A stretch of DNA of 64,000 nucleotides. Origin: Bugula neritina. Its lineage: Eukaryota > Bryozoa > Gymnolaemata > Cheilostomatida > Bugulidae. The notes under the pieces were generated by a model, which had not been told where the DNA came from, ran no database searches, and worked only from the letters and a program-made list of their open reading frames with translations. Position 1 is the first letter of the stretch. Each line of letters starts with the position of its first letter. The stretch spans positions 10,859,722 to 10,923,721 of the forward strand of contig OZ037766.1 in the NCBI GenBank assembly GCA_964035545.1, read 5' to 3'. Shown piece by piece: positions 22,056 through 64,000 of the stretch. The translations under genes were made by a program, and so were the position numbers.

Positions 22056-23274
22056 TTTGAGAAAGCTACTGTATTTTATTTATATGAAAATATTATTTTA
22101 TGCTGCTTAAGCTACTTGGTTTTCCTTCTTATGTTCAGGTTTAATAAATTCTCTGTATTTGAAACTCCTGTTGATTATTTTTTGCTTTTAACCCAAGATT
22201 TAAACTATAAAACTAGGTGTTTAAACAAGTTAAAGCCGCATAAATACTGGAAACTGGAAAATAATGACCACATAATATTATCAATTAAACATGATAGGTT
22301 TGGTTAATATATCTAGTAAATTTGTGCATTACTACTCTGTAATTTTGCAACTAATATGCATATCTGTGCACATAATAGTGATCTAAACTCTAAAGTATTT
22401 TTTCTTACAAAGCAATTTCATAGTAATAAATTATGTTTAAGATTCTTTTCCTATTCTTTGTTTTTGCTCTTCTTCACACTTCTATGTGTTTTAAAGCAGA
22501 TATTTAATAACCATCATCATTCAACTGACTATAAGGTAGAAATATTGAGTTAACTAAATAAACTTTAGCTATCTGTTCACTTTTTATTACTCTGCAATAC
22601 TATTTTTTATTATCATGTTTCATTAAAATGTATTACATAGTAGGCATAAGGGAGTGTCTAGGGTTTAGAGTGTTTGGCTTAGCAAACACGAAATCATGGG
22701 TTCGAACCCCAGTAAAGGCCAAATTGGTGATGCTAGGAAGAGCATCTAGTCATAAATGCTCTTGTGCCACATATGAATAAGTAGTCGGTAGCCCGCTTTA
22801 AAAAAACTTTTCCATCAGGGCTAGTGGCTGTAAACTTGCGCGAGTGTTTTATTACATTATAATAGGTAGGTAGAGAAATTATTACTTAATTAGTTAACGC
22901 ATATAGCTCTATAAGCATTGCTTTTTAGACAGCACTCTACAATCTACATGATAGCATTTAGAACTCAATATATAACCTATATTATTTTTAAAATATTCTA
23001 AACTCAAGAAAAGCTCGACTATAGTTTAATATTTGCACCAAGCCAGACCAAACGATTTGCCAACATAATATTTGACTAAAATAAGAAGTTATCTCTTCTC
23101 GCAAACTGTAACAAAGTATTGCGTTTCAATAATAATAACATACTTTAGTTCGTGATTTTATATACAGTGTGTAGAAAATAAGGGCCATACAACAACGTTC
23201 ATTTAGCGATACATTATAAATAACTTTGTAATGATTTTGCAATAGAACATTATTTTAGAAAAGAAATAGAAAGC
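22056..23274. other. intergenic, IQ-motif gene to NOB1
   Basis: After the IQ-motif stop the sequence is AT-rich and lacks supported exons; open frames at 22116-22553 look random. A tRNA-derived SINE sits at 22647-22850. The NOB1 promoter should be in the last few hundred bases; no motif was recognised. Confidence 0.55.
22647..22850 (+). mobile_element. tRNA-derived SINE, copy 1
   Basis: A tRNA-like head carries a good B-box, GGGTTCGAACCCC, at 22698-22710, preceded by a degenerate A-box region with GGTTTAGAGTGTTTGGCTTAG. A central block with TGCTAGGAAGAGCATCTAG follows, then TGCTCTTGTGCCACATA, and the 3' part ends with GCTGTAAACTTG. The same order of blocks occurs at 37021-37240 and 39713-39930. 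It does not fold as a functional tRNA. Confidence 0.8.
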
Positions 23275-27777: not shown

Positions 27778-30700
27778 CTAGCCAATTACATTCTTCTGAC
27801 AAGTGCTTGTAGTGCCGTAAATGTTGCAGCAAAAGTTTTGGTCGTAGAACTTTCCAGTCCTGAGACTTGTGGTACAGGTAGATGGTCTAGATCTCACCAC
27901 AAAATCAATCTCTTTGGTAATGGATCTTCTCAACTTCTTGCAAATAGCTGAATCTATATAGAACACATTTAGAATTTGTAAAATGTTACTGTAATTTATG
28001 CCATAAATGTTTGGTAGAATTAAATTAATGAAGTGTTTTCAGGCTGAAAATATAACCACCTTTATATCTGAATAAAGTATTGGATGTTCATATATGGAGT
28101 TATAGATTTAAAGAAAATTAATGATGGAATCATAAATATTTGCAAATAATATATTATAGTTGGTGTAATCGAATAACACTCACCAATGCCAATAGTTCCA
28201 TAAGGTGTGATAGCAGCTTTTTTCTGTTTTACTACCTTTTCAACTGGAAAAATTATAATATAATATAAACTGAATATATATTAAACTGAAAATTATATAT
28301 GCCAAAATTGTCACCCACAAATACGAAGTGATTTCATATAGCACAAGTAGCATGTTGATCTAGACATTTCTATTGGCATTGCTATGGGGAACAACTATTG
28401 AAATCATTTCTAATCATGGTGTATGGAATTAAACCTGTAACCAACTTCTATAGTTAAGATAGCAGCATGTATATAGAAGCTATACTTACGTCTACTCTGA
28501 CACAGTGAATTGCAAATACTTGAGAAAGTTGTGCAGCTGTACCGGGTTGAAGCAACTGTTGGCTTGACCTTAAACTCATTCGATACATCAGAAGCTCGAA
28601 TATTTTGAAATATGGTAGAATATCCACTATATCTTAATCCAACATAGCAGTCACAACTGTAATAGTAAAAATTATTTTATATTACTCAGTGACTTATATA
28701 ATGTAGATATTTTAACCATGATTTCTTGAACTATGATTGCTTATATATGTTACACACATATATATAAGTAGTCTACTATAAGCATGTTATAGGTACTTCC
28801 TCTATAAAGTGTACCAATATTTGCCATGAAAATTTCCTTGAATATGGTTGGTGTAGAATAGCTGAATAACTAACCTGGCTCTGTAGACTGTTGACGGCTT
28901 TTTAGTGCTTGCATTGGGCCTGTAGGTGCTGTTGAAGGGTTTGTAGGTGGTGCTAAAGTAAGGCTTGTCGGTTGTATTAGAAGGGTAGTATGTGCTTCCC
29001 GATCCAGCTTTGCATCTTCTATAATAACTGCTAGTACCTCCTGAGCAGCAGAAGTTATAATCCAGTGTTCGGATGTACGAGCGGTATCGTGAGTTAGAAC
29101 ATTGCCAGTTGTCTAGCACACTGTACAGCTTTAGTTGAGAGGACTTGCCAGTGTAGTAGATGGGCTTGTATATTCTTCTACAGGCATTATTCTCTGCAAT
29201 ATCATCAACAAACTTAATGCATACTACTGAATATATGGTATTACTAATAATAATATTCAGTTCATACTATAGAATGATAATACAAACTGCAATAACAATC
29301 TCAATATCTTTTAGTAAATTTCATCAAATAAGTTAGTATGTAGTATTATTTATATTAATATAAATGTTCTGTGTATAATTATTAAACTTACTTATTCCAG
29401 TTACAAGGTTAGTATTGAGAGGCAATCCAGAAACTGGCTTCACAACTAAAATAAATTTAACATTAGTGGTTTTCATAGCTGTTGGGCACAACTTTGGTAC
29501 CCACAATAAATATCCACAATATTACAACTACATACCCCCAATAAACGCCCACAATAATAATTGTATAATTTGTTAAGTTAATTATAGCAATGCCCAAGCT
29601 ACACAGGATAGTTAAGGGCAACCTTTTAGCTGCAACTGCCTTGCTGAGGTTTGCATTGTAATCATATAAGAATTCAGTACCAGTAAAATAAAATCTCACC
29701 TAATTGTGCTTATAGAGTCAAAATTTAAAAACTATGTTGTAGATCTTGTTTTTCCCCAGTGCAACTTTTTTGGAAATTTCAATTTTCATTTTTTTTGCAA
29801 AGTTATAGACAAAAAACTGCCCAATTTTGGCCAATTTTGCCAGAAAAGCTGACTTTTCAGTACCAGTAAAATATCTCAGCAGCAAAAGATGATATCTGAA
29901 TAAAAATTGCACTGCTGGAATCCTGAGATATTTCTCCAGTGCATCTTTTTTTCATTTTCCAATAACTCTGCTAGATTGCCCATAAATTGGTGATTTATAC
30001 ACTGAAAATGCCATATTTTTTCATAAGAAACTAGCAGCGCGCAGTGCTTCACGCTTCAATGAGCACTTAGGGATGAGAAGATATTGGCGCGTACATGCTA
30101 ATTATAGGCTTGCTAGCTGGCAGGCTATTATGAATAGCTCGCTTTGTACTTTGTTTATGTAGCACCCATAATGGAATGTTGATAGATAACGCAGCCCTAA
30201 TGAAGGTTGTTGCTCATTGGCTGTAGTTTAATCTTAGGCTAAACAAATGCAAGTAGGCAACACGCATGCCACCCGCAGAGCAATATTATTCTAGAACCTG
30301 AACTACATTTTGAGAGAAATTTATGATATTCTTAGTGAGGATGCCCTTAACTATCCTGTGTAAGTCTCTCCATGCTTTCTTATAGCATGATCACTGCCTT
30401 CTTCCACATTTTTAATTTAATCTCGGAAAATTTTTGCTATGAGTGGCGGCATTATTCGCTATGGGAAGGGTTAGAATAAACATGTGATCAATATTTATTC
30501 CAAGGATATAATACAGCTCTACAAAATGGTGAATATTTAGCTCTTTTATGTTTGAAATTTGTTAATGTTACCAGATTTCACAATATAGGCCAACTATTTG
30601 CACAGACATCATCTAAATTCTCAAATTTTTGAATATTAAGATTACATGAGTTTTAAAAAATAATTGATCTAATTGAAAACTGTTGAAGTTACATGGCAAG

Positions 30701-33700
30701 ACTGCATATGCTATACACTCAACACAACCTATAAACTTATAAATGGTTACCTGCTTATACAAAACAACATACAATAGCATACGAGCAACTATTAGCATTA
30801 CAATTCAACTTTAACTTAGTGTAAAATAGTTGGAAATGCATACCAAATCTGGTGCAGCTTTGTTTGCAGAGTTGCTGTGCCGGGTAGCACCCCTTGGTGA
30901 ACGATACAGTGACCGTGTAGGCAGCTGACAGCAGCTGCTCCACTCCGTTGTTTATATACACAGGAACACACTGACATCTTCAAACAAAGTAGTTTCTAGT
31001 TCACCATGATGTCTTATATGCAGCAGCTTGAACATTTTATGCTTTACAAGGATTCTCATTTTTTCATATAATTGGCTGAATTGACTTACTTTATGGTCTG
31101 AGATGATTTTGGAGTTGTGGAATAGTAAGGAGTAGATCTGCAATCAGCAATTAAAATTAAGCAAGTTTATGATTATAATAATTCATCTTTAGTAACTATA
31201 AACCTGATTTATGAAATATAAATATTCTACTATGTTGCATCAGCAATTATTGCGACCTTCTAATATATCTGCTTAGGCCTATACATGTATAATAGATGTA
31301 TTGCCAACATATAGTAATTGAGGCTTACTTTGTAGTGTAGATTTTAGGGGGTCTGCTTGCTGTCGTGTAAGAGGCATCACATTTCTTGGTATATCTCTTA
31401 TTGTTACAGCAAAAGTAACCAGTATCCAGGGTGGCCACAATCGATGATGTCATGTTGGTGCATGTCTTCAAATCTGAAGTAAGTAACAGCTTTGCTCTGT
31501 TCCCCGAGTAGATGTTCTTTTCTACCCCACAGATTCTGTCACCTTGAATTATAAAATTACGAGAGTTGAAAGCATCCTTCGCTTAAAAGTGAGTAAAACA
31601 GATTTGCTATAAAAAGTTAATTATCAGCATTTTTAATGAGTTTTAGCTACTTTCAGGTGATAGACGTGGAAAAGTCTTGCTAGTAATTCATTGACTGAAT
31701 CATCTAAATAATGCTGCAAAGTGGCATGCAGACATATCAGCTGCTTAACTATGTTTATTGCAGTTTTTGAGATAAATCTTGATGCAGCATTTTAGCAGAA
31801 ACTAGATTTTTAAAATTTTTCCCTTATTTGTAGCATGTAATGTCAAATTTAAGTTGTATAACAAAAATGTGATCAACTGCACATAATGTCACGATGTAAC
31901 TAAATACACATGGGACGTACCTACAGATCTGCCAAAGTAACTGGATGAGAATGGATCAGACTTTGTGTAAGAGTAGGTATTGGCTCCAGATCGCATGAGG
32001 TTCCTATACTGATTGGCTGTTAAAAACGCAAAGCGAATAATATTAGTTTATAGTTGGTATTAAAACTCTAATAATTAGAGAAGAAGACTTTTTGAGGTGT
32101 TGTCTGTATAATTTATAACAATTATATTTGTGAATCTTGGAACTGTCCATAAAAAGAGTTAACAAATTGAGTAAATAATTAGTGTTATAACGACATATTT
32201 ATGAAAGAGAAAATTATTGTCTAGACGTCACAGTAAAATTTTTTTATCTATTACTAGTTAACAGCAGCCTAATGTTAACATTGACATGTAGCTCAGTAAC
32301 ATCTCATGCAGATGCTGAACTCTTTTTATATTAAAAAATAGTTAATTAGACAAACTTGCTGAACTAGTATACTTGTTCAAATAGGCTGTGTTGTATGATG
32401 TAACATTACCACTAATAGTATACCAGATGCTATACTAAAGAAATGTTTCAACGGTGAAAATGAAAATGCTAAAAAATGGCTTACTGGTTTTGCAATATTG
32501 CTTGCATTTTTGCATGCCTGCATCACAGTCTTCAGAAGAGAGAATTGTGATATTAGTAGGCGGTGGGAGAGCTGTTCCAATAAACGTGTCGCCATAGTTT
32601 TTGAACACGGTCAGCACGCATTTACACCTTAAAGCAAAGTATTATACATAATTTACTGTAATATATCTACAAAAATAGTTCATTATCATTTTAATTTCAT
32701 TTTCAATCAAATGAATTCTTCATTAGAACAGCGGAGGAAGGTAAAGGCTGCTAAAATCTTAGACTTCACTCATAATGCACCAAAATTTTTCCCAAATAAT
32801 GAAATTCATCAACTGAGAAAATGCTGTAGAAAATATTCTACAGTATCCTCTACATATAGTCTACAGTATACTCTACAGTACATCTTACACTCTACAGTAT
32901 TTCCTACAGTATATACTACAGTGCACTCTACAGTATATTATATAATACACAGATGCAATTATAATTACTAGTTCCATTATTACATGGCTGTATATTGTTG
33001 CACTGAGTGCGTCTTCAATCTCTTAATTCAGATAAAGAAGTAATATAATGAGATGACTTACGGCAGCACTCGAGGTGGCCTGCTGCACTTTATATTTTGC
33101 CCTTTTCCATCACAGCAGAAATTCTTTTCCAGTAAGTGAACCTCTTGGGGTCTAAACCCACATTGAGGGAGGTGGCTGTATACATACAACTCGGCCCCAT
33201 CTCCAAGCAACTTCGACTTGTAATCTTCACATACAAACTCACCTGTAAATCAATTGAAAAGTATAAAGGAAAAAAACTCATCTTAAATTGTACAATATAG
33301 GCATTTAAAATAGTAGTAATAATTACATATTATTATAATTATAATAGTATTATACATTATTAATTGAAAATGTATGTGAAACTTTTAAATCATACTATAA
33401 TAATAAGAAACACTATGCTGTAACTACAACTAGCCTATTGTTCCTTGGAGCTTAGGTCTTTGGGAAACTGGAATCTTTAACAACTTAAGGAAGTCTTGTC
33501 GAACAATAATCTGTCTCAAGCCACCAATATTGTTCACACGAGTTTTCACATCTGGAAACATATTAGCTAACTGTAACATGTGTAACTACAATGAAAACAT
33601 ATGTAGCTACATTGAAAACATGTGTAACTACAATGAACACATGTGTAACTACAAACAAAGCAATGTAATTATAAGGGGAACATAATATAAAGAATTCTTT

Positions 33701-36700
33701 TTTAAAACTAGCTATCTACAATTTTTGAAATTTTAGTAATAATACATAAATTAAGAAATACTTTTTACTTTTTTTATGGATTAATGCACAGAAAAAGGCA
33801 TTTGTAGTCTATTCAAAATATATGTTCTCATAAATGCACTTTATGATAGAAATATTTCTGCTTTGCTGTTGTGAAAATCTATGTTTTGTCTCAAAAGCAG
33901 CTAATTCATGGAAATAATTAGTTTTGTTGCAAAACAAAAGACTATGTTCTCTCATGAGCATCAATGTCTGCGAACATCAAAACAATGTGGTGCCATTGTT
34001 ATTATTTTACCACCAACTCCTTCACCATTTGTCAATGGTTCCTAATTTACCGAGCTAGCTATTTTTAAAAAACTATTATATACCTTTGCATATGCAGTAG
34101 TTAATAAAAGTTTAAAAACTTTTCTAAAAACATAGCTATTCTACGTGTCAATTATTTGGCAACTTATAGAGATTTTTAAAAAAGCGGTTTTTGCAACAAA
34201 ATGGTACATGCTTTGTTGAAAAACGTGAAAAGGTAAATTTCAGAAGTAAAAACTGCTTATGCTATTACATTAGTACTTGTATATAAACATTATAACACAA
34301 AGTACTGGACAAATAAAAGTATAGCTGGTCTTGGAAATACATACACTCTATATGCATAACTGGAAGAACGGAGACTATGCAAATTGAAGTTAATAGTTTC
34401 CTTTGTAAACTATTTTCAGTCCTTAAAATATAGTCAAACTTACACAATTTGCAGAAAGCATCACATTTTTCTTTAGCAGCTAAGCAAGGATCTTTGAACA
34501 CATCTGGGATATTAATAGTGTAGGTACCCTCTGGCAATGCATTTGGAAAGTCTCTCAACAGTTGGTGTGAGCCATCTTGTTCAAATCCCAAGGAACAAGT
34601 GCAGTCCAGTGAAGTGCTTTGTTTGCTAGGCATAGTAGAAGCTGGAGTTTTGGTAGCTTTTGTGGTAGGTTTAAACTTAGCAGTAGTTGTAGTGTCAGGC
34701 TCATCAACAGTTGTAGTTTCAAGTTCTTTAACAGTTGTAATCTCAGATTTTCCACGAGTTGTAGTTCCAGGTTCTTCAACAGTTGTAGTTTCAGGTTCTT
34801 CAACAGTTGTTATCTCAGGTTCTTCAACAGTTGTAGTTTCAGATTCTTTAACAGTTGTAGTTTCAAGTTCTTCAACGGTTGTAGTTTCAAGTTCTTTAAC
34901 AGTTGTAATTTCAGGTTTTCCAAGAGTTGTAGTTTTAGGCTCTTCAACAGTTGTAGCTTCAGGTTCTTCAACAGTTGTTATCTCAGGTTCTTCAACAGTT
35001 GTAGTTTTAGGCTCTTCAACAGTTGTAGCTTCAGGTTCTTCAACAGTTGTAGTTTCAAGTTCTTCAACGGTTGTAGTTTCAAGTTCTTTAACAGTTGTAA
35101 TTTCAGGTTTTCCAAGAGTTGTAGTTTTAGGCTCTTCAACAGTTGTAGCTTCAGGTTCTTCAACAGTTGTTATCTCAGGTTCTTCAACAGTTGTAGTTTT
35201 AGGCTCTTCAACAGTTGTAGCTTCAGGTTCTTCAACAGTTGTAGTTTCAGGTTCTTCAACAGTTGTAGTTTCAGGTTCTTCAACAGTTGTAGTTTCAGGT
35301 TTTTCAACAGTTGTAGTTTCAGGTTCTTCAACAGTTGTTATCTCAGGTTCTTCAACAGTTGTAGTTTCAGATTCTTTAACAGTTGTAGTTTCAAGTTCTT
35401 CAACGGTTGTAGTTTCAAGTTCTTTAACAGTTGTAATTTCAGGTTTTCCAAGAGTTATAGTTTTAGGCTCTTCAACAGTCGTAGCTTCAGGTTCTTCAAC
35501 AGTTGTAGTGTCGTCTATGATTGATTCAGCTGTAGTTGTGCTTGCTGAACCAGCTGTAGATACACCATCATCACTTGTACCGTGGTCGATCTCTGTAGTG
35601 GTAAAGTCTTGCTCAACAGAATGAGTTACTTCCAGATCTGGAGTGGTGGGTTCGTCAGAGATTGTGGGAGGTTTTACTGGCCAAATGATTTCCTCATCAG
35701 ATTCCTTGGACTCTATATAGGTTGTCAAGAACACATGAATTAGCCTTTTAACTTTTGACTTTCTTTCTGACAAATAGTGTTGCATACATAATGAAACAAA
35801 TGGATATGTAGGCTAAAAATGTAACCTACATGTATTATAGTACAGATGCGTGTTACAGTAAGAAAGACAACATATTGTTGCAATACATGCCAGGGAACAA
35901 ACCAATTTTACACAGTATACATATCAGACATTTTTTATAGTCCCAAACCATGATTTTTGCCAGGCAAACTGTTTCCCCCTCATCCCTCCTCCGCTAATTT
36001 TATCTAAACTTGGGAAAGCCACTTTTGTTGATTCATACTTTTATTTGACCAAATTATTAATTTTATAGCTGCCTTCTGACAAGCCTATTTATATGTGCTA
36101 TGGAGCAAATATGTTCTACTTTGTTAAGTAATGAAATGTGGGAATGTGGTAAACATAGTAAATAATGAAATTAGATTTTCCTTATAATAATTGAATATCT
36201 GCAGAAAGCTTCAACAATACCCCATGTATAACTACCCAAGTTGTGAACCTTGAATCTCTTGAAAATTCCTGATTTAATTTTCATTAGCTGCTATGTGAAC
36301 TATGAGATTTGCATTGCTCAAGAGTAACTGTGTATAAGAAATACTTATAGATCCAAAAAAGTAATTACAAAAACGAATAAACTTATTCAAACTTTTTATT
36401 TGTTTTGAAAAGCTAAAATATATAATTAAGATTTTACTTTGGTCTAACTTCTCTATATTCTAAATATAGATACATGACTGACAATTGGAATGAGGATGTG
36501 CACTTTGATACAAATTTTCAAAAAATATAGGCCCTTGGCCTTTGGCTCTTGTCAACACCTACTCACTTGTACTGTAGTCGAATAAGAAGTTGGTTTCTTT
36601 TCCAAAATTTTGAGAGCCATGGCTAAACCTTATTTTACATCTAGAAGTTTCCTCGTCAAATTGCAATGGCATTGAAACACCTTCGGTGTTCTTCCCACAG

Positions 36701-38933
36701 TAATAGGGAAGAGAAAAGAAGGCGGTCTCTTCAAAGTTGTTCGACTCGTATACTACTTGAACCAGTTCATCACAGCTGGTATTTATTGCCTAAAGATAAA
36801 ACATGTTGAAATTTTAATAATTTTGAATATAGCTTTTTGTAAATATATTTAATTAGCCACATGCTAGAAATTACAAAATTGCATTTTTAGTGTTGCAAAT
36901 AGGGCTGAAAATTATAATATCACATGAAAGTTGTTTTTTACAAATACAGTAGCAGCTTGCAATGTTTGAATTACAGTTAATTAACATACTATATTTTCAT
37001 TATTCACATATTAAGAAGAAAAGAGGGGTCTAGGGGTTAGAGCACTGGCCTAGTAAACATAAGGTCAGTGGTTCGAATTCTATAAGTAAACGTCATTGGA
37101 TATGTTAGGAAGAGCATCCAATTATAAAATTTATTCCTTTGCTACAATAAATAAAAGTCCTTAGTCCGCTAAAAAACCAGTCTATTACGGTTTCTCGCTG
37201 GGATGGTAACTACAAACCCATGCATGAGTGTTCTTTTACTTAGTAAAAAGTTCCTATACATCCAATAATTTAGGTAAGGGGTCTCTTTTGAGGCAGGCAT
37301 TCTTATAACAAATGGTAGCACGCGGAGAAGTAGATTGAGATGATATTTATAAATTTAAGTTGCATATAGTCAAACTAGGCTAACAAGCTCAGTAGTAAAA
37401 AGGTAGGAAATTTTAAAAAGCATGTAACACTTCTCAGACAAATAAGATATCCCTAATTTAAACCCTTACTCTTGTTTATATATTTATTAAACAAACAAAT
37501 ATATATTTTTATCTATTGCAAAAGTCAATATAAATTAATTTGTAATAAAAAATATTAAAAATTTAAGCTTTACATTTGAAATATAATTCATATAGCTAGG
37601 TATTGTAAGAAAATTTATTTTTTGGCCAATAAAAATATAATTGTATTTATTGTATTCATCTACTGACGCATGACATAGCATTAAGCATGAGCATGACGAG
37701 CCCCATTTAATGTTGAGATACTAAGAAGCGCTATAATTCAGTATAAAATTGTTACCAGCAGACGTAGATGAAGGGAAAGTCTTTTACCAGCCTCCACGGT
37801 AACTTCACAGTCATCAGGTATATTTGGCACTTGGTTTTCATCACTAGGGAAGAGTCTTATGAATCCATTGATAGAATAATCACCCACAGATACAGTTTTG
37901 CCACAATTGTTAGCCACAATCACTGAAAACCCAAAAAAAGTAATCAAAGAATAACAAAAAATAGTAAATTAATAAAAATTAAAGTTCCCGAATAGTTTCC
38001 TTCAGTTGAAAAAAAGGTAAAAGCGTCTAAAGAATTGAAATTTATAGTGCAATTTTAATTGTAGCTGTCCTAAAACAAAAATGGCTTACTGCGATTATTT
38101 ATTGTCACTTTTATGTAGAAAAACAAGCTCAACAAATATAGATTAAAGCACCATTCTTGTATATATGTACATTTCTCCTTATAATATAATATAAGATGTG
38201 AAACAAAAACAATATTTCTAGGAGCAATTAAAGAAACAATATATTAGAATAATAATGTTGTGTGTCTTTTATACATTATTAGAAGTTAAAACATAAACTA
38301 AAACTTTATATTAATTTGGCTAATAAGTGATTATTTTCAAATACTTGGTGATATAATAGGCTTTTATCCACTATTGGTCACCTCCATTTAAATGAACTAA
38401 AATTTATCGCTAACTGTTTCGAATTCTGATAATGATATTTCATAGCAGAGTTTATATCTGAACATCCTTTTTACTAATCAGAGTCTTTTGTCACATTGTA
38501 GGAAGCACTGTTATCAACTTGTCATAACACTAATATGATTGGCATTCTGCTAGTTTTTATTCAACGAAATTACCAAGACTGGTTATGTAATGGTAAGTTA
38601 GAAAAACGTCCTGCAGCTATAAGTGCTGCCAAATATTTGTCTTACATATACATGAAAATCCGCGAAAAATAATGCAAGCAAAAAGATTTTTGCTAGTAGT
38701 AGCCAAATCAGAGATATGATTGATATTAGATCAATGGACTTAAAATACAGAAAGTATGAGTAGCAGGTTTTGATCCGGTCTGCATGCATAAACTTAAATA
38801 TATCTATATTAATCTGTCATATAACTGCTGTGTATAATATTTGAATGTGGTATATAAGTACGTGGTACCTACCATCAGCTTTACCTTGACCTACTAATAG
38901 ACAGCCAACTGCCAAAATGGTGATGAGCTTCAT
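27778..38933 (-). CDS. secreted CUB / acidic mucin / four ten-Cys-module protein (paralog A)
   Basis: I do not recognise this protein. Sixteen exons: 38873-38933, 37756-37922, 36567-36789, 34444-35712, 33435-33551, 33062-33242, 32485-32627, 31921-32016, 31329-31542, 31090-31137, 30844-30977, 29392-29445, 28875-29193, 28490-28656, 28184-28243, 27778-27953. They total 3429 nt, or 1142 aa. A signal peptide (MKLITILAVGCLLVG) is followed by a CUB domain at about 21-150, seen from its cysteines, the YYCGK segment and the final FLFDYST strand. Residues about 220-472 are an acidic Thr-rich domain of TTTVEEPE octads. Four ten-cysteine modules follow, at about 521-672, 673-823, 840-1008 and 1009-1142, each with C-x6-C-x3-C and FCC. 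The donor after exon 5 is GC, not GT; exon length (117) and phase equal the paralog's. An extracellular, disulfide-rich role is inferred. Confidence 0.8.
29602..30360. mobile_element. non-autonomous TIR transposon with TA flanks (Tc1/mariner-like)
   Basis: The left end reads CACAGGATAGTTAAGGGCA (29602-29620) and the right end TGCCCTTAACTATCCTGTG (30342-30360), perfect inverted complements over 19 bp and nearly so for a few more. Both ends are flanked by TA (29600-29601 and 30361-30362). The 759-bp body has no transposase frame. It contains a direct repeat of CAGTACCAGTAAAAT near 29675 and 29859. Superfamily assignment rests only on the TA flanks. It sits in the intron between exons 11 and 12 of paralog A. 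Confidence 0.75.
32835..32950. repeat. CTACAGTA-rich short repeat
   Basis: Words of CTACAGTATA type recur every 9-20 bases in both perfect and degraded form. The tract is intronic in paralog A (between exons 6 and 7). No function is evident. Confidence 0.65.
33576..33660. repeat. 21-bp tandem repeat, about four copies
   Basis: The unit is TGTAACTACAATGAAAACA followed by two bases; single-base differences separate copies. It lies just upstream of the acceptor of exon 5 of paralog A, within the intron. Confidence 0.75.
34720..35510 (-). repeat. coding 24-bp repeat array of paralog A (VEEPE octads)
   Basis: About 33 tandem 24-bp units encode TTTVEEPE and variants (ATTVEEPK, TTTLGKPE, ITTVKELE, TTTVEELE, TTTVKESE). 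Variants recur in the same order in longer blocks of about 190-240 bp, showing that multi-unit segments were duplicated. Dense Thr suggests mucin-type O-glycosylation; the Glu makes the domain strongly acidic. Open frames on the opposite strand of the array are artefacts of the repeat. Confidence 0.9.
37021..37240 (+). mobile_element. tRNA-derived SINE, copy 2
   Basis: The head GTCTAGGGGTTAGAGCACTG has a clear A-box-like region and the B-box is GTGGTTCGAATTC at 37068-37080. The central block TGTTAGGAAGAGCATCC and the 3' end with TAACTACAAACCCATGCATG agree with the copies at 22647 and 39713. It is intronic in paralog A (between exons 2 and 3). Confidence 0.8.
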
Positions 38934-39449
38934 GTCAACGCATTAGCTTTCAAAATGCAGCTGAAAATACGCCCAACCATGCAAAGAGAGAAGGTAAAAT
39001 TGAGCATAGTTCAACTTTCAACTTTTATTAATAGATTAATCTTATCAGATATATCTTGGTTCATGGTCAAATGTCTGCAGATAAGTAAGTATGATAATGC
39101 CTTCGATCTGGTTAATACAATCAAAATAAACAAACAGGTTGGCATGCGTTATCTAAGGTCTAGTTCAACAGCAAAATAGAAAAGTTGCAAATAATTTAGT
39201 ATTCTTGATCAGCAATTAAACGAAACGTCCATTAAGCTAGAAACTATCATGTATTTGCTAAAAATAATTCAAACCAATAATTTGTGAAGTGTTTATTTAT
39301 AAAGTCAAAAAATGTTTGAAGAATAGAACTGGGCATGTATTATTTACATTTATTATTATAAAAAGTAGAATATAAAAAAAATTGAGTTTAATATATATTG
39401 GCGTTAATTAGAAGAGTAGGGTTTGTTAGTTTAACATAATCAAACACAG
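38934..39449. other. spacer between the tandem paralogs
   Basis: This 516-bp spacer holds the 3' flank of paralog B and the promoter region of paralog A, both on the minus strand. It is AT-rich. TTTATT words (AATAAA on the minus strand) occur near 39294 and 39347 as possible poly(A) signals for paralog B. No TATA box was assigned with confidence. Confidence 0.5.
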
Positions 39450-42400
39450 CTACCCCCAGACATTCTTATTGTAACAGGAAGTAGTATCAAAACCATCGCA
39501 ACAGAATTGTGAATCGAATATAGCTCCATCGTCTACAGCACTTCCACATTCAGATGGTCTCGATTGCATGACAAGGTTGATAGGGGTGTTTACTTCATAG
39601 CCCAGGTTTGAACAGATGGCAGATTCTGGAAGCAACATCATACTATTTACTTCATTATAATGCTACACCACAAGAGATATGAATATGAGTATGAATGTAT
39701 GAATATAATTCCAAAGGGAGTAGCCGTGGTGCAGTGGTTAGAGCAATGCCTTCACATTTCACTAAGCCAGCGGTTTGAGTGCACTTCATCGATGATGTTA
39801 GGAAGAGCATTCTGTCATAATTGCTCCTGTGCCACATATAAATAAATCAACAGCCCACTTTGAAAAATGCCCTTTCTAACAGAGGTTCTCACAGGGACAG
39901 TGACTCTAAACTTGCATGAGTTTTTGTAAATGTCATTCAAATAAATTTCTCTCTAGTAGGTTAAAAAGCAGTGACTATAAGTTTAAGCAAATTTGTAGAC
40001 CTCAAAATACTAATGTTCTAAATCTTAGATAGTAAGAGAGACCTACCATAAAATGGCATATCTTCATCAATCACAAATCTTTCCACTACAACAATAGAAT
40101 TTATAAAACTTGACACAAATTAAAGTAACCCATCAAAATAAGCAATAAAATACACGATTATTGGTTTTCCTAAAATACTGAATTGAAATAATATAGGTGA
40201 CTTATGAGCATTACAAACTGGCGGCCTTTCGATAATAATTTTGTAGTGCATATTAATTTTAAAGTAATTTTTGCTGATTCTCCAAATTAAATTTTACCAA
40301 ACCTACCTTTTTGCTGGCATTTAACTTGGCAGATGTCACGAGCTTCACCACAATTGCGCACTTTAGACGTGCTGACGGAAGGAAAACCACCAACAATATC
40401 TGATACTCTCATAGAGTCAAAGCTAGCATGAAATGTATTCTCATACTGAAGGCCAACAGAACAAATGCATCTAAAAATTATATAATATATCGTAGTATAC
40501 TATAGCAATATATTTTATAAATTGACTTGCTAAATTTTAAGCAGGTAAGTAAATAACAAAAAATTATCTGGTCAAAAATTTGCATGTGCTAAACTCTGAT
40601 GTTGGCTCTTTGAGTTGTTTAACTGGAAGCTCAAGATATTATTTTAGTAAAAAAAGTAATCCATAAAAATTTCCCCAGTCTTAAATTTTATGCTACAAAA
40701 CTTTATTATAATATAAGATTATGTTTACATCCAAACTAAGTTAACTTATAATAATGTAGAAATTTAATCCAGTTGATTTCTATTTTTCAAAGATACATAC
40801 CAAACAACCGGATTATAAAGCATGCCATTCAACTAAAATATTGAAAATGCATTTTGAAAAAGTTTTTTTTACTAAAACATACTTGTATTTTTTTAGTCCT
40901 TTTGCCCTCTTAGTAGTAGGGGGGTCAGTGTAATACATGAACGGCGTTGTAGTGTATTGGTCAAGTAGAGACTGACAGCTAGTGTAATATGGGTCACGGT
41001 ATGGCAAGAGGTTTCCGTAGAAATCATTCGTCCAATCATATTGGGCAAACTGGTCATGATGTCCTCCAGCGCAGCAAAAATCTTTTTTCAAAACTTGGAC
41101 CAGCGTCTGATGATGTACATTACGGCACTGTACGTTATCCAATGCGCTATAAACTTCCAATATTGAAAGATCTTTTCCCACATCTGGATTGAACTGAGTG
41201 TTTATTTTTGTACACACGTCATTGGCTGCAAAACGTTGAAATCTAAGCATTATTTGACTTTAAATAATTTATTAACAGTTAAATATTATTGCCTTAGGTC
41301 ATCACAATTATAAAAGATATCAATAGATTGAGAGTAGAAAACACTTGGTTAATGCTTTCTAAAGAACTGCAGAAACATTAGACATCTGTTAACTTACACC
41401 AATTTTGTATTTTTATAATTTGATTATGTGCAACAAAATATTTATAATAGCTTACCAATTTTTTCAACTAGTAAAGCAGGATCTTGAGGTTTCTTGCCAG
41501 CTAGCCCATTCACTGCAAAATGTTTATGTTTATGTTTAATACACAAAATACAATCTATATTGAAAGTAGAGATAAAATCTAAAGTTGCGTTTATACCTTC
41601 ACGATTTTCGGTCAAAAATTCAATTTGGCCGGGTTGAAATTTCTCCGAGTTGCATTGCATTGTAAAAGCCACTCGTTGAAATTTTTGTACTGCGATAACT
41701 TAATCGGCCAATTTTAGAATAGGAGTAATAACTCCTTGTAAACATCGTTATTTAGTTATTACTTTGGCGATTAAACAACGTACTTATACGGTTATAATTA
41801 TATAGCCTACGCCTTCTCAATTATCGCTTTTATGCTTTCCGCTTCACTAATTCACGACGTTTACAAAGGGCATCAAATAGCTATTATGCGAGTCAAATTT
41901 CAATTTCGAAAAGTGAGCAACCGCATCAATATGATTTCAACGAGTTTCAGCTTGACTATAAAGGGGTACCCGGACAAGCATTATTAACTTAAACTCGGTA
42001 CTTTTTTCAGCAGAGGTATAAACGCAACTTTATGTTGTTAGAATTAAACTAGTAGTTTTACACGGAAATATTTGAAGCAAAGTAAGAACTTTTAGTGCAA
42101 CATAAATATAAGTTAGATTATGGATAGCACTTCCATACTGTTCAGTGCTGCACGCATAGAATTAGCCTAAAATCAAGACTCGGCTACAACAGATTCTCAA
42201 GTGAAACCTTATTTCTGTGTAAAGTCTTGATTGCACACCATTATATGCTTACAAAACTTGAGACACTGTTGCTGACACTGGCTTTCTGCAGATGAACAAG
42301 ATGAGAAGGGTATGTCAGCAGTATAGACGGGATAAAATCTTCTCTCCTTGTTGAATTTCTTAGTTCCATTATAATATACTGGAACACACTTACACCTATT

Positions 42401-45400
42401 ATAAAAATACAACCAAAACAAATCTAACAACGATGCATTCTATTATGCATATACACTATACAGTAATATGTGGTTTTGATTCTAAAATTCCAAATTAGTA
42501 TCATAATCAATATTTTTATTTTGAAAAAAAATTAAGTTAAATAAATTATAACACCCTATCTTAAGCAATTTGAGTGCCTAAAATTAGTTTCCAAGAAAAA
42601 TTTGTTAAGCATTCATGACAGCCTCGCAAAGCTTGCACAATTTGCTAATTTTGAAACTTGCTGTTTAATTTAATTCCATAAATATAAAAACCGACACAAC
42701 CTACAAGTGATTGTTTTCAGTAAACATAAGGAAAAGCTAAATGAAATCATATTTGGTTCATTTTCTTAAAAGTATTATTTGTGAAAAATAAAAAGAACTA
42801 AATCAAATTTGATATTAAAATTCAAACTTGCAATATAACCAATTACCATCCAGGAATTGCACTACAATTAGCTGTGATTGGCCAAAGCTTGATTGTAAAA
42901 CTAGGTCAACTTTCTGTTGATTGCAGGCCATTCAATACAATGGCTTCTTTCTAGGGCCACAAAAATTTGTCAAAGCGTACTATTCTATGGTGGCAATAAT
43001 ATTTTCAACCCAATATCGAAACTTGCCTACATGAGCGTAGTAATAAAAGAAATATAACAAATTGCGGTACTTACTTTATGGTACCGGTTGGAGAGGGGGG
43101 TGTAGTAGTACTTGTAAATTTCACAGACGTTTCACTAGTGGGTTTGGTTCTCAAACTAAAATATTAAAAACATACCAGATGACAACTTGCTTGTTATTAT
43201 GACAAAAATATTGTTCTAATCATTACTAAGTAAAACATACTGTAAAACACCATTTAAAATTTCTGAAAAAGCTACAATGAGTTGGAATTTGTTTTATGAT
43301 CAATTCATAAAAAAAATTACTTTACTTTAAATAATGTATTATTTTAAATACTTTATATAGCACATAATTCTTAAACTATTGAGACATAGTGTCAACCAGT
43401 TTACTTTGCCCTGACCTTGTAGATGGTACTGTCGTAGTGAAACAAGGCACACGATTTCCTTTGTCATTGCAACAGAAATTGTTTTCTATTTGGTGTACTT
43501 GAAGTGGGTCAGCAGTACATTGGGGAAGATGGCTGAAGACATGCAGTTTGACTCCTGGAGCTGTTATTGTTTTGTTGTAGTCTTCACAGACAGAGTCACC
43601 TGGTTCCAACAAGTATGTATATCAAAGTTAATGCTAAGCTTACATTCATTACCTTATTTACTATTCCTAGCATTAAAACAACAAACTCAGCTTGAAAAGT
43701 GGAAAACATCCTTTACTTCTAGCCAGCCTCTTATAACTAATTTGCTTATTTTTACTATATATACATATATACAATATATAAAACCAAGAAGCTATTATTA
43801 CTCTAAAATTTACAATTTGTTGTTGCAATTGCTTGGGGTTTTGTTATATACGCTTGTGCAATTTCTATAGTATTGTAACTTATTTTTAAAATCATGTTTA
43901 ATAGTGCAAGAAAAATAGTTAGAAGTAGGATTTTTTTATTTTGCAATCACCAGTTCAGATTTTATGAAATAGTTGTATAGCACAAGAAGTTACTCCATCC
44001 ACTAACTGAAAAGTCCTAGATCCAAACTCCGAGTTAAGAGACAAAATATGGTAGCTATAAAAATTCAGTTGTTAAATATGTCGTGAATTGTGGCACATAA
44101 TATATAACCTTGACTTTGTGGTTATTTATTTAACATAGGTTTCAGCTTCTTTCTGTTTTAATTGAATGTAACCACTAATTAGAAAAAACTCAACTTCATT
44201 TAAAGTCCCTAATCCTGTAAGAAACTCTGATGGTAGGAGTTTTATGCAGCCTTATAGGGGCAGTGCTGCTCAAACCACTTTAGTTGGGTTTCGGGTAGTT
44301 CAAAGTAGTACAGCAGGAATGATGACTGCACCAATAAATCACTATGAATTCGCACTTATGAACTAGTGTGTAGGCTAAGCCAGTGCTTTAATTACCAATA
44401 TGCACTGAGGCTGTTCTCTGAATGGCCATTTATGAAATACTAAATATAAATAAATTGCTAAACTTGAAAGCAATGTTAAAAGTCTCAGTTTTTTTAAAAT
44501 CAAATACGATATACAACATTTTAATAATATTATATTTAATAATTATGTGCCATGCTTAAACCATACGCTGCATAAAACAATATTATAGCTGCTTATTATG
44601 TGTCATAATAAATAAAATACCTAGAGGCTTCAGCAGCTGGGGTCGCTGACTGGGGTCAAGTTGAAGGTACTTGAGGAAGTCATTCCTTGTGACAATCATA
44701 TCCAAATCGTCACTACTGCTCACCCTTGTAACAACGTCTGCAAATAAATTCATAACTGCTATACCAATTTTGCATCACATCTCTTTTTTTCTGTAAAATT
44801 ATATGTTATTTTGGATAACCAGCTTTAATCTAGTTTTATATAGTAGTATGACTTGTTTGGCAATCGTCTTACATAATCTGACGTAGCAGTATAATACTAA
44901 ATTAAGCATTTTATACTTTAGTCTGATGCAAGAGTGCAACCACAACATGATTTTCCACAAATAAATACATTTTTAGGCAGTTTTAATTTTGAATAATTTG
45001 CCATACAATAAACCCCCACCTCTATATTAGAGGTAAATGTTTATACAATTATTAGATAAAACATAACAAAAAAGCACACTTACAAAGTTGACAAAATTCC
45101 GTACACCTGGCTTCGGCAAACGAGCATGCTGACTTTTTAGATGACAACGGCAAGGTAATAGCATAAGGTAGCTGAGGAATGATAGTTGGAAATGTTTTAG
45201 AGATATGGTAAGAACCTTGCTGTCTAAACCCTAAAGAACAGGTGCATTGAAAAGATGTTGGGGTGGTAGATACTGTGATTGTTGATAAAGTTGATGGTTC
45301 AGTTGTTGGTTTAGTTGTTGGCTGAGTGGTTGGCCTAGTAGTTGGTTTAGTGGTTGGCCTAGTTGTTGGTTTATTAGTTGGCCTAGTAGTTGGTTTAGTG

Positions 45401-48177
45401 GTTGGTTTAGTGGTTGGTCTGGTAGTTGGGTGAGTGGTTGGCCTAGTAGTTGGTTTAGTGGTTGGCCTAGTTGTTGGTTTATTAGTTGGCCTAGTAGTTG
45501 GTTTAGTGGTTGATTTAGTGGTTGGTCTGGTAGTTGGTTTAGTGGTTGGTTTAGTTGTTGGCTTAGTTGTTGGTTGAGTGGTTGGCCTAGTAGTTGGTTT
45601 AGTGGTTGGTTTAGTGGTTGGTTTAGTGGTTGGCCTGGTGGTTGGTTTAGTGGTTGGCCTAGTGGTTGGTTTAAAGGTTGGTTTATTAGTTGGCCTAGTA
45701 GTTGGTTTAGTGGTTGGCCTGGTAGTTGGTTTAGTGGTTGGCCTAGTGGTTGGTTTAAAGGTTGGTTTATTAGTTGGCCTAGTAGTTGGTTTAGTGGTTG
45801 GTTGAGTGGTTGGCCTAGTAGTTGGTTTAGTGGTTGGTTTAGTGGTTGGCCTGGTAGTTGGTTTAGTGGTTGGCCTAGTGGTTGGTTTAAAGGTTGGTTT
45901 ATTAGTTGGCCTAGTAGTTGGTTTAGTTGTTGGTTGAGTGGTTGGCCTAGTAGTTGGTTTAGTGGTTGGTTTAGTGGTTGGTTTAGTGGTTGGCCTGGTA
46001 GTTGGTTTAGTGGTTGGCCTAGTGGTTGGTTTAAAGGTTGGTTTATTAGTTGGCCTAGTAGTTGGTTTAGTGGTTGGTTGAGTGGTTGGCCTGGTAGTTG
46101 GTTTAGTGGTTGGTTTAGTTGTTGGCTTAGTTGTTGGTTGAGTGGTTGGCCTAGTAGTTGGTTTAGTGGTTGGTTGAGTGGTTGGCCTGGTAGTTGGTTT
46201 AGTGGTTGGTTTAGTTGTTGGTTGAGTGGTTGGTTTAATGGTTGGCTTGGTAGTTTGTTCAATGATTGGTGGTGGAAAAGTTTTTGATACAGGTTTAATT
46301 GGCACAGGAAGGGCGCTGAGTTTGGTTGTCAATTCTTCTTGCTGTTCTGTATGCTGCACTGTTGTGGTGGTCAAATTTTCTGTGAAGCCAGTATTATCAG
46401 AGCCAATGGTGGTGGGAATCAATGGCCACTTCAGTTCCTCTTCAGCGTTAATCAGCTCTGCAACATTTCAGGCAAATTTTATAGCATTTTTATTTGTTGT
46501 TGAAATAAATGTGTACCTCCAGCAACACTATCTTTTTTGTTTGCTCACAATAGGATAGCAATAAAAACTATATAGATTGAATGCTTTAAGCTGTATTTAC
46601 AGAATTCAAAATACTAACTAAGAATATTTTTTCATGATGCTTCGCATAAAACAGAACTAGTTATATGACAGAAAATAATATGGTATAAGGACTTGATACT
46701 AAAATTTAATAATATTTCTAAAACTGGAAGATAAAGAGTTGTCTGATGTGCACAACAATAAATAACAGAATTCTTTATAACGAATAATTAGCAAATTTTA
46801 AATTGGTGAAGAAGGATGGCTTGACAAATAATTTTAACAGATAAAGATCTTACAAATGCTGAAAATGAAAAATGATGACTATTGAAGCGGTTTCTATTGA
46901 CTTTAATCTCAAAAAAACATCATTATTTTAAACAGCTTCAAACTTGAACATATCAAATCTTGTCAACAATTCATTTTAATAAGTGGTAAAAGTTAACAAC
47001 TGAAACCCATACATGAAACCAGCAGCCTATATATTTCATTGACGGCCACAAACAATCACCACATCTTCTATTCAAATATTGGTAAAACAGTAACTGCAAG
47101 TGAATTACATACTAGTACTATAGTCAAGAAGTAAATCACTCTGCTGCCATGTATCCTTGCCATTATGTTCAAAACGGAATTTGTATGCAGTGGTGTCACC
47201 ATCAAACGTTAAGGGCACTGGCTGAGCCTCAAATATCTTGTTGCCACAAAAATATGGAGACGATGAAAAAATCGGTTCATTAACACCATTTTTCTGGTGC
47301 CAGATCTGCAGTGTTGTACTACATTCAATAAAATCTATCATCTGCAACATATGTAACAACTTCATCATTAATAAATCATGTAACTTCATCGTGAATACAG
47401 AGTTATAATACAAATTGAAAAGTTGTGTGCTTTATATAATTAAAAAAGTCTAACCGAAATTGGTTCATGGGGAAATTTTATCATTAAACAATTGTAACAA
47501 CTGTGTAAAGTAGGTCTATATAATTATTAGCTTTTAGAAACAAGAATGTGCCTAAAGACTTCTAGGCACATTTTTGTTTAAAAAAATATTTAGCAGATTT
47601 AAATATGTTATACTTTAAGAGTAAAAACATACAATAAGGCGTATATGCAGAGATAGGCCTTTTCCAGCTACCAGTCTAACTTCACAGCTATTAGGGATAG
47701 AACCTGTGACATCGCCATCTGACTGCAGGCTGACAAATCCATTTACTGATGACTCACCAAGAACTACTGTCTCCGCACACTTATCAAGAAGTTTCACTAT
47801 AACGTAGCAACAAATAAGTCTTTCAATAAGTGTAATAAAAATAGAATACATCTTTTCTATAATCTGGATTATATTTTGCTATAAGTAAGGCAGGCAGCTT
47901 GACATATAATACTGGAAATGCTAGTCTATAAAACAGCATATAATATATATTTCTTTCTCACCTTTCTTCGCCATTTTTTGATCAGGTGGCGAAGCATACA
48001 ATATATATAAATTTTGCAATTTGGATTTTATATTTTTGCCGAAGCAGCTCTGTTGAACCTGCAGGTCTGCTTAATATTTGTAATTAAAGTAGTATTATAA
48101 GACTTACCATCAAATGTCTGCAAGGAAGAGCCGGCATTAAAAATACCAAACAGCAAGAGTAACAGTTTAAAAGCCAT
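39450..48177 (-). CDS. secreted CUB / basic mucin / three ten-Cys-module protein (paralog B)
   Basis: This is the tandem paralog of the gene at 27778-38933. Thirteen exons: 48108-48177, 47633-47796, 47113-47341, 45084-46457, 44621-44737, 43416-43599, 43075-43155, 42253-42395, 41456-41512, 40883-41225, 40307-40470, 40047-40085, 39450-39625. They total 3141 nt, or 1046 aa. A signal peptide (MAFKLLLLLFGIFNAGSS) precedes a CUB domain at about 24-154 with SSPYFCGNK and LLLDYST. Residues about 216-545 are nearly pure PTTK/PTTR/PTTQ tetrads, strongly basic. Ten-cysteine modules lie at about 559-712, 740-920 and 921-1046, each with C-x6-C-x3-C and FCC. Exon 7 is an 81-nt Ser/Thr/Pro linker. Exons of 117, 143 and 176 nt match paralog A exactly in length and phase. 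The function is unknown. A matrix, mucus, adhesive or defence role would fit the architecture but is inference. Confidence 0.82.
39713..39930 (+). mobile_element. tRNA-derived SINE, copy 3
   Basis: The head AGCCGTGGTGCAGTGGTTAG has the best A-box of the three copies; the B-box is decayed (GCGGTTTGAGTGC). The central TGTTAGGAAGAGCATTC, then TGCTCCTGTGCCACATATAA and the 3' GTGACTCTAAACTTGCATGA match the other copies. It is intronic in paralog B. Confidence 0.8.
44215..44400 (-). mobile_element. possible degenerate tRNA-headed SINE
   Basis: Read on the minus strand, the stretch from 44397 down begins GGTAATTAAAGCACTGGCTT and continues to a B-box-like AGTGCGAATTCATAG. This resembles the head of the SINE at 37021 (GGTTAGAGCACTGGCCTAG). 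The body downstream does not match the three clear copies, so it may be another family or a strongly decayed copy. Confidence 0.35.
45285..46275 (-). repeat. coding 12-bp repeat array of paralog B (PTTK/R/Q tetrads)
   Basis: About 82 tandem 12-bp units encode PTTK, PTTR, PTTQ, PTNK and PTFK. Larger blocks such as PTNKPTFKPTTRPTTK recur at least four times, which indicates duplication of multi-unit segments. The region is almost free of acidic residues. Unit length in multiples of three keeps all lengths in frame, so array size could vary between individuals without breaking the gene. Frames open on the other strand here are artefacts. Confidence 0.92.
47538..47579. other. short perfect-stem hairpin
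   Basis: Arms AAACAAGAATGTGCCTA and TAGGCACATTTTTGTTT pair over 17 bp with one mismatch around an 8-base loop. It lies in an intron of paralog B between exons 2 and 3. It is shorter than a usual animal pre-miRNA hairpin, and it could be a foldback remnant. Confidence 0.6.
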
Positions 48178-50134: not shown

Positions 50135-51224
50135 CTAGTCCTTCTTTTTATCAGCAACGTCAGCTGTATGTCCATTCAACTTCACATCTTGAGTAACACC
50201 ATTTTCATGTGGATTTTCATCACCCTGGAGAATAGAACATATACTCAATAGCAATTTAAAGAATAGTGTGAGCAACTGTTAACAAGCATTACAATAACCA
50301 ACTTTCAATAAATCTTATTCAGTTGTCAGAAATAATATAAATGATAAAACTCTTTAGAAGTGTACATACTCTTGAAACACTAACACGGTTTCACAATATA
50401 TGATATTAGCGACGTAAAAACTTACAATAATGTAACTATGTTATTACATAACTGGCCGAAGCTATTTGTTTTTTTTTAAAAATCATCTTGTACCTAACAT
50501 CAAACTTGCAGAATTTTATAATATTTTCATAACTCGGCTCAACAGCCAGCCATGATCACCTATATTATGTGTTTGTAAAACAATAATTTGATCAAACTAT
50601 ATCATCTTCCAAATAACCTTATTTCATCTAAAAAATATAAAACCCCATCAAATGTTGAAAAAACGTTATTGGTAGTTTACCATAGCAGTAACTATAGAAC
50701 AAAAATAGCATAAGAAAAAACCTGACAAAGAGGCTGCGTGACTACTTGGCATACCTGCTAAGTGAAACCGACAGCAGTTGTCATGAGTAGGCAACTTACA
50801 TTCTATTCAATTATCGTGGTTACTAAGTTAGATCTAATGCAAAATATTTAAGATAAGAGCCTTTACCAACTGTATGAACAAATGATAATCCCACAGTGGA
50901 TATGAAAACATGTAAGCATAAGCTAAATGTTGCTAGCATTAAACCTATCATGTCTAAAATTGTTTAATCAATTTTGATTATTCACAAGAAAATCAGGTAG
51001 GATAAACAACAAACATTAGATACCTTTGATGTACTAAATGGACATTTTAAGCCAGCAGTAGAAGAATCCTGTGCCGATTGAGATGTATTTTCGTCAGATT
51101 TTGTAACAGCCGGGGTTGGAGTAGTTCTGAAGTATTTGTCTATTATAGGCATCACAAATGGGCGAATCCAGGAGTGCCACACGTAGAGTAAGGCAGGGAT
51201 AACAATGCAAGATATACAAACCAT
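50135..51224 (-). CDS. C18orf32: C18orf32 / UPF0729 small ER and lipid-droplet protein
   Basis: Two exons, 51024-51224 and 50135-50224, encode 96 aa. The N-terminus MVCISCIVIPALLYVWHSWI is the family hallmark: human C18orf32 begins MVCIPCIVIPVLLWIY and is about 76 aa. This hydrophobic, Cys-containing N-terminus acts as a membrane hairpin or anchor; the human protein has been placed on the ER and lipid droplets and linked to NF-kB activation and GPI-anchor biology. The middle, residues about 36-90, is polar and poorly conserved and slightly longer here. The end ADVADKKKD matches the conserved CDKKKD tail, which resembles an ER-retrieval type lysine motif. A possible 5' UTR intron ends at CTCCCAG just upstream of the ATG. 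Identity is firm; the exact role remains poorly known in any animal. Confidence 0.9.
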
Positions 51225-51684
51225 ATTGGTAACTTACAGGTAGTCTGGGAGAAAGCTAAAAATACAGTAAATATTATAGATGGATATGTATACTTGCTAA
51301 GTTAAGAAATTTTTATAAATTAGTTTAAGCAAAATAACCGCTGTAAACGTAGTAAATGAACATGATCTAGATATTAAATCAAAACTGTTCAAAGGATTGT
51401 CTTAATAAATATTCAACACTAGTATAAAATTCACTGCCTATAGGCCTACATGAAATCGAAATACATGGTGTTTACATGCAGTAGAGCAATTTTTTTGTGG
51501 CAACAAATAAAAAGTCTGTATCAGTATTCAAAAATTGAAAAACCCACATGAAAAAGCATTTCTAATTACTGTTTGATTTAAAGCCCATTTAGAGAAGGTT
51601 GCAAATTTCATTGCTATCTCTTTAACCATTGATTGCAAAAACTTCCAATGACAAATAGAAAAACAATGAAAACAATTTCACTAT

Positions 51685-63951: not shown

Positions 63952-64000
63952 CTAAAATAATTATTACATGCATTAGCATTACAGTGTTAAAATCACAATG

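Follow-up and report, generated by a model that had tools for sequence, protein, structure and literature searches.

A ten-cysteine module repeated in three predicted Thr-rich secreted proteins of the bryozoan Bugula neritina

Gel-forming and other secreted mucins carry long PTS repeat stalks between Cys-rich folded regions, and the sandcastle worm uses charged repeat proteins. Among the described Cys-rich extracellular domains, the LU domain offers a close comparison to the module examined here. According to the sections of the source articles that were available (PMC6600238, PMC4839075), the LU domain is 60 to 90 residues in length and contains ten cysteines, of which the eighth and ninth form a CC pair and the tenth stands alone at the end; it starts with CxxC and ends with CC-x4-C, with an Asn past the tenth cysteine. 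The same sections describe a three-finger fold with disulfides 1-5, 2-3, 4-6, 7-8, and 9-10, encoded by two exons between phase-1 introns (PMC6600238, PMC4839075).

We analysed a stretch of 64,000 nucleotides on chromosome 2 of Bugula neritina (contig OZ037766.1), referred to below as the window, in which a sequence-only reading had described an apparently new ten-cysteine module in two paralogous genes. That reading had proposed to look for relatives in spiralian transcriptomes, a choice that fits the bryozoan source. For this species, the available part of the genome description lists the assembly tzBugNeri2.1 with 216.00 Mb and 320 scaffolds, together with an Ensembl annotation (PMC11480708).

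Two tandem genes and a third on another chromosome

The two tandem paralogs, both located on the minus strand and here called gene A and gene B, were rebuilt from raw DNA, with the splice sites and reading phases checked and the exons joined by hand (Table 1). Together they occupy the span 27778-48177 of the window, which is delimited by the gene B stop codon on one side and the gene A start codon (ATG) on the other. The first exon of gene B was the best of five candidates when phase-1 exons beginning with hydrophobic residues were sought. The joins in the two genes included a single non-canonical donor, located after the linker exon 33435-33551 of gene B, where the next intron opens with GC (gctagt) and the paralog has GT, which suggests a GC-AG intron.

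Table 1. Predicted features of genes A and B in the window, and location of gene C.
Feature	Position (strand)	Exons or parts	Remarks
Gene A	48177-39450 (-)	13 exons	1046 aa; three modules
Gene A exon 1	48108..48177 (-)		Signal peptide MAFKLLLLLFGIFNAGSSLQTFD, by eye; donor gtaagt, phase 1
Gene A exons 2-3	47113..47796 (-)	47633-47796, 47113-47341	Divergent CUB-like region, four cysteines
Gene A exon 4, first part	45259..46457 (-)		EExxWP motif and Thr-rich stalk
Gene A module 1	43416..45258 (-)	First half 45084-45258 (in stalk exon), linker 44621-44737, second half 43416-43599
Gene A spacer exon	43075..43155 (-)		Thr-rich; separates modules 1 and 2; phase 2-2
Gene A module 2	40883..42395 (-)	42253-42395, linker 41456-41512, 40883-41225
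Gene A module 3, terminal	39450..40470 (-)	40307-40470, linker 40047-40085, 39450-39625	Includes stop
Gene B	38933-27778 (-)	16 exons	Four modules
Gene B exon 1	38873..38933 (-)		Predicted signal peptide MKLITILAVGCLLVGQGKAD; phase 1, donor gtaggt
Gene B CUB-like exons	36567..37922 (-)	37756-37922, 36567-36789
Gene B stalk	34616..35712 (-)		Thr-rich, VEEPETTT-type repeats
Gene B module 1	33062..34615 (-)	34444-34615 (in stalk exon), linker 33435-33551, 33062-33242
Gene B module 2	31329..32627 (-)	32485-32627, linker 31921-32016, 31329-31542
Gene B spacer exon	31090..31137 (-)		Separates modules 2 and 3; phase 2-2
Gene B module 3	28875..30977 (-)	30844-30977, linker 29392-29445, 28875-29193
Gene B module 4, terminal	27778..28656 (-)	28490-28656, linker 28184-28243, 27778-27953	Includes stop
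Gene C	Chromosome 7 (contig C7), 13010743-13023119	18 exons	1125 aa; four modules

Gene C was first found through a lone match with an E-value of 4.8 on another contig when the whole genome was searched with module queries. The cysteine spacings of this match were those of the terminal modules A3 and B4 (21 residues, 14 residues, then CC), and its end resembled theirs. The predicted product of gene C contained a signal peptide, a CUB-like region, a Thr-rich stalk, and modules, and the plan common to all three genes consists of a signal peptide-like hydrophobic start, a CUB-like region, an EExxWP motif, a Thr-rich stalk, and three or four modules. Next to gene C on its upstream side, and in the same orientation, there seems to be a gene that we labeled by eye as Ig-like, at about 1723-5300 of locus L026.

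The genome searches covered 215.8 Mb in 295 contigs, from which all counts are lower bounds, and used all 11 modules of the three genes as queries, with the linkers mostly omitted, plus one typed consensus-like module. Module B1 was queried as two separate halves, and modules B4 and C4 were queried twice; the E-value limit was 0.001 in one search with module A2 and 10 in all others. No fourth module-bearing locus was found in these searches, which sets three genes as the lower bound. Two other matches were discarded as unrelated, one with an E-value of 0.75 in a frame full of stops (locus L025), and one with an E-value of 3.2 to what we take to be a PAN-like domain (locus L081).

It was also noted that a short dispersed repeat (TTAGGAAGAGCAT...) with a SINE-like look was present at window positions 22713-22755, 37085-37127, and 39778-39820, the second copy being inside an intron of gene B and the third inside the last intron of gene A. 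A 93-base repeat, perhaps an interspersed element, was present in two copies that were 90% alike (21709-21801 and 55203-55295), and an 18-base tandem repeat of about 40 copies, open in more than one frame, was located at 3605-4329. The window also contained RPS12 exons at 63603-63986, for which the named matches were mostly to 40S ribosomal protein S12, and frames that we presume to resemble a kinesin motor exon (1237-1632), a C18orf32-like protein (50982-51233), and an MBOAT enzyme (61874-62212). Rfam and tRNA scans were empty.

The ten-cysteine module and the searches for relatives

The order of ten cysteines previously described for the window modules (CxC, Cx6Cx3C, C, C, CC, C) was exact in 7 of 7, and all seven of the C-x6-C-x3-C strings that had been quoted were present in the rebuilt genes. 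Phe preceded CC in all seven modules. The description of the last cysteine needed one adjustment: its position was variable, being 7 to 10 residues past CC in six modules and displaced to 31 residues past CC in module A2. The count of seven copies was correct, with three in gene A and four in gene B, but their restriction to two genes was not, since gene C adds four modules outside the window.

The total number of modules was thereby 11 (3 in A, 4 in B, and 4 in C). The spacings x1, x6, x3, and x0 were fixed in every module, whereas the variable spacings ranged over 26-41, 20-79, 21-28, 14-22, and 7-31 residues, resulting in a span from the first to the tenth cysteine of 118 to 195 residues. 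An alignment of the 11 modules placed nine of the cysteines in invariant columns; the tenth was present with variable placement. Phe was located directly before CC in 10 of the 11 modules. The slice taken for module C2 held an eleventh cysteine at its start, which is the last cysteine of module C1. When the three proteins were scanned with the strict pattern, 11 matches were returned, whereas 2000 shuffles of their module regions produced no match.

In every module, a linker exon without cysteine separated the first half (CxC, Cx6Cx3C) from the second (C, C, CC, C). The two internal introns were in phase 1 in 11 of 11 modules, the entry intron was in phase 2 in all nine modules that have one (the first halves of A1 and B1 are located in the stalk exon), and the exit intron was in phase 2 in all eight non-terminal modules. 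The hand-made exon joins on which the sequence-only reading had relied were borne out for the window modules by consistent intron phases in 7/7 internal pairs, 5/5 entries, and 5/5 exits. Furthermore, every exon of genes A, B, and C was open in frame.

The pairwise sequence identities between modules were only 12% to 35%, with the exception of A1 and B1, which were 45% identical. In a tree inferred from the modules, the terminal modules A3, B4, and C4 clustered together (95/91), as did A2 with B3 (100/99), while B2 was placed beside C1-C3 (93/94, not starred). The branches were very long and the meeting of long branches was warned of, and we have therefore used only the positional correspondence between modules, with caution.

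Consistent with the previous suggestion that the cysteine pattern of the module differs from those of familiar extracellular domains (EGF, TSP1, VWC, trefoil, WAP, LDLa, ShK), it was recognized neither in Pfam, NCBIfam, and PDB nor, for genes A and B, in a large protein database. None of the 11 modules reached the curated cut-off in Pfam, where the best match was to a DUF with an E-value of 0.045 and a score of 13.7 bits against a cut-off of 27; whether the query was a joined gene, a single module, or a CUB-like region, Pfam returned sub-threshold matches only, which did not agree with one another. Nor did any of the 11 modules match the Pfam models of the LU superfamily at cut-off, the only match being of one module to Activin_recp, presumably a member of this superfamily, with an E-value of 0.27 (12.7 bits against 20.9). 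In NCBIfam, the 11 modules yielded two matches, each from one module, with E-values of 0.041 and 0.1. The best E-value in a profile search of PDB with the modules was 1.1, and sequence searches of PDB returned nothing below an E-value of 0.19.

In a database of 5.8 billion proteins, no match was obtained at an E-value of 10, either for protein A (modules scored, most of the stalk repeats omitted) or for the module regions of A and B. A control search with RPS12 returned 1075 matches, and among the 120 listed, Flustra foliacea (93%) and Watersipora subatra (86%) ranked at the top, from which it follows that the database includes bryozoan and other animal proteins. Since no near-identical RPS12 was seen among the matches listed, Bugula itself is seemingly absent from the database. 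The method needs exact shared five-residue words and applies length limits, and its null result thus excludes only fairly close relatives. Among the matches listed in a search of the open-licence literature, no description of a ten-cysteine module of this type was found, which does not imply that none exists. We conclude that the module is genuine, that it is commoner than first stated, and that it has no detectable relative in the libraries searched.

The two halves of the module were modeled separately from seven-row alignments. The model of the first half, of low confidence (mean pLDDT 66), contained strands followed by a helix at positions 38-57 that carries C45, C52, and C56; cysteines spaced as i, i+7, and i+11 would share one face of such a helix. 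The model of the second half was poor (mean pLDDT 53) and contained two strands. A Foldseek search with the first-half model gave no match at an E-value of 0.001, which given the low confidence of the model is weak evidence. From the cysteine pattern we infer a five-disulfide fold, and with five cysteines in each half, at least one bond should connect the halves if all ten cysteines pair within the module.

N-terminal regions and Thr-rich stalks

The N-terminal regions of the three proteins, encoded by two or three exons, could be aligned with each other and contained four common cysteines and the EExxWP motif in all three sequences. The four cysteines were arranged in two pairs, with CG at the fourth, in 3 of 3 sequences. 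The order of the cysteines and the phase-1 borders are like those of the CUB domain (PF00431), as is a C-x-V-x(n)-A-G-x-x-L motif in genes A and B, and the cysteine spacing is slightly longer than that of a typical CUB domain. The Pfam model PF00431 recognized none of the three regions even at an E-value of 10, and a genome search with this model listed no row at the three loci (150 of 183 candidates scored). A profile comparison of the CUB-like region with five CUB pieces from Bugula gave a weak match in the right register (P 0.0029, probability 10.7%), while a control in which the modules were used instead gave a P-value of 0.58. Taken by their sequences, the N-terminal regions resemble CUB domains that have diverged. 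Elsewhere in the Bugula genome, CUB-domain exons were seen in dense arrays at 4.957-4.996 Mb of chromosome 5 and at 10.334-10.362 Mb of chromosome 4.

The stalks of proteins A, B, and C were 391, 357, and 281 residues long with a Thr content of 43%, 31%, and 46%, respectively. Thr, Pro, and Ser together made up about 67%, 44%, and 63% of the residues in A, B, and C, and with their long tandem repeats the stalks qualify as mucin-type PTS regions. The repeats in stalk A were of the types TTKP, TTRP, and TTQP with a 12-base unit, and those in stalk B had an unrelated 24-base unit. The stalks of the adjacent paralogs A and B had net charges of nearly equal magnitude and opposite sign, with 73 Lys/Arg and 7 Asp/Glu residues in stalk A (net +66) and 23 Lys/Arg and 94 Asp/Glu residues in stalk B (net -71). 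Stalk C contained 14 Lys/Arg and 28 Asp/Glu residues (net -14). The net charge of the module region was +1 in A, +46 in B, and -5 in C, and the entire protein B is therefore less negative than its stalk. The effective charge could also be changed by O-glycans on the stalks.

No segment of transmembrane strength was identified past residue 30, the highest mean hydropathy over 19 residues being 1.43 and the usual limit for transmembrane segments about 1.6, and none of the three proteins had a hydrophobic C-terminal tail.

Interpretation and comparison with known systems

Hand-made joins based on DNA alone, one of them with a GC-AG donor in gene B, could in principle have produced the modules from wrongly joined exons or pseudogenes. 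We have rejected this explanation, which is hardly credible given that the intron phases agree across 11 modules, three genes, and two chromosomes, that all exons are open in frame, and that no shuffled sequence reproduced the pattern. A more specific proposal treats the module as a much enlarged or derived form within the LU (Ly6/uPAR, three-finger) superfamily, with which it shares ten cysteines, a CC pair at positions 8 and 9 in 11 of 11 modules, a single last cysteine, and a presumed extracellular location, and to which the sub-threshold Activin_recp match of one module also points. However, the cysteines of the module span 118-195 residues compared to 60-90 for the entire LU domain, the start is C-x1-C in all 11 modules rather than C-x2-C, the end is CC-x7..31-C rather than CC-x4-C, and Asn follows the last cysteine in only 2 of 11 modules (C1 and C4). 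The module is furthermore encoded in three coding pieces with phase-2 borders and two internal phase-1 introns, whereas LU has phase-1 borders and one internal intron, and a long helix is predicted, at low confidence, in the first half. Membership in LU is on these grounds very improbable, and the assignment was dropped on length, flanking spacings, Asn, and intron phases. That the module is some other known extracellular domain, diverged past sequence detection and recognizable by structure only, deserves greater weight, as such divergence is common in Cys-rich domains, Pfam also misses the CUB-like regions of the very same proteins, and the structure was modeled for halves rather than for the whole module. 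Against it stand the lack of any module at the Pfam cut-off, the profile search of PDB with nothing below an E-value of 1.1, and, more weakly in view of the low-confidence model, the absence of a Foldseek match for the first half at an E-value of 0.001; we consider it unlikely but worth keeping in mind. By its sequence, and within the libraries searched, the module is best described as constituting a family of its own among secreted Cys-rich modules, and since lineage-restricted modules of this kind are not rare, the surprise is limited.

With regard to function, we consider it somewhat more likely than not that the products of genes A, B, and C are secreted, lack a membrane anchor, and serve as mucin-like structural glycoproteins in mucus or an extracellular layer. 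This reading builds on the consistent gene models, the occurrence of the same plan on two chromosomes, and the retention of the cysteines despite divergence, as well as on the EExxWP motif in 3 of 3 proteins, the stalks with 31% to 46% Thr, the lack of a membrane segment or tail, and the weak CUB-like profile comparison. Counting against it are the failure of Pfam to recognize the CUB-like region in any of the three genes, the poor half-module models, and the fact that secreted proteins with CUB and Cys-rich domains also act in immunity and fertilization. The main functional rival is that the products are secreted recognition proteins of immunity or colony allorecognition, in which case microbial or self glycans would be the ligands of the CUB-like region and the diverse modules, with the stalk as a mere spacer. 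The strong divergence of the modules, outside the A1/B1 pair, and, weakly, the CUB-like N-terminus fit such a role, but only three genes were found (a lower bound) with no large cluster, the Thr-rich stalks are very long, and no membrane anchor was seen, which makes recognition a distinctly less likely function.

As structural glycoproteins, the three products would carry an O-glycosylated, extended stalk, and each module would form one disulfide-stabilized unit of strands and a helix with the Cx6Cx3C cysteines on one face, the helix-bearing first half being joined to the strand-rich second half. The module array may serve as the binding or cross-linking end in cuticle, organic matrix, or mucus, and may have grown when a unit with phase-2 introns at its borders was duplicated, the copies then diverging but keeping their cysteines. 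From the opposite stalk charges, we conjecture, as a bolder possibility, that A and B may pair electrostatically. A further step, which we regard as rather improbable, would be that they constitute a matched two-component system, in which the polycation and polyanion stalks draw the two homologous proteins together extracellularly into a gel or coacervate, with the modules subsequently locking the assembly through binding or disulfide exchange. If true, this would be a bryozoan extracellular material made of two parts, with a new domain family as its foundation. Two candidate secreted proteins of opposite charge are of interest in a fouling animal, for which attachment and cuticle are of practical concern, and the three-gene family, whose module is well defined and has distinct exon borders, could serve to test how Cys-rich modules of secreted proteins originate and multiply.

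The DB module of nematodes (PF01682), which we take to be similar in having CC, then a Gly-containing loop, then Cys, was not matched in Pfam by any of the 11 modules. Like mucins, the predicted proteins have a long stalk of Thr/Pro-rich tandem repeats with Cys-rich folded regions on either side and are putatively secreted; they differ in that Pfam scans of their N-terminal and module regions gave no match to VWD, C8, TIL, or CTCK, and in that the Cys-rich part is formed by the new module, with a CUB-like region at the opposite end. A and B also recall complex-coacervate adhesives of the sandcastle-worm type, in which, according to the source excerpts available, oppositely charged macromolecules associate, the likeness for A and B being one of computed charge. 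By analogy with LU, the module may pin its core with ten cysteines and a CC pair.
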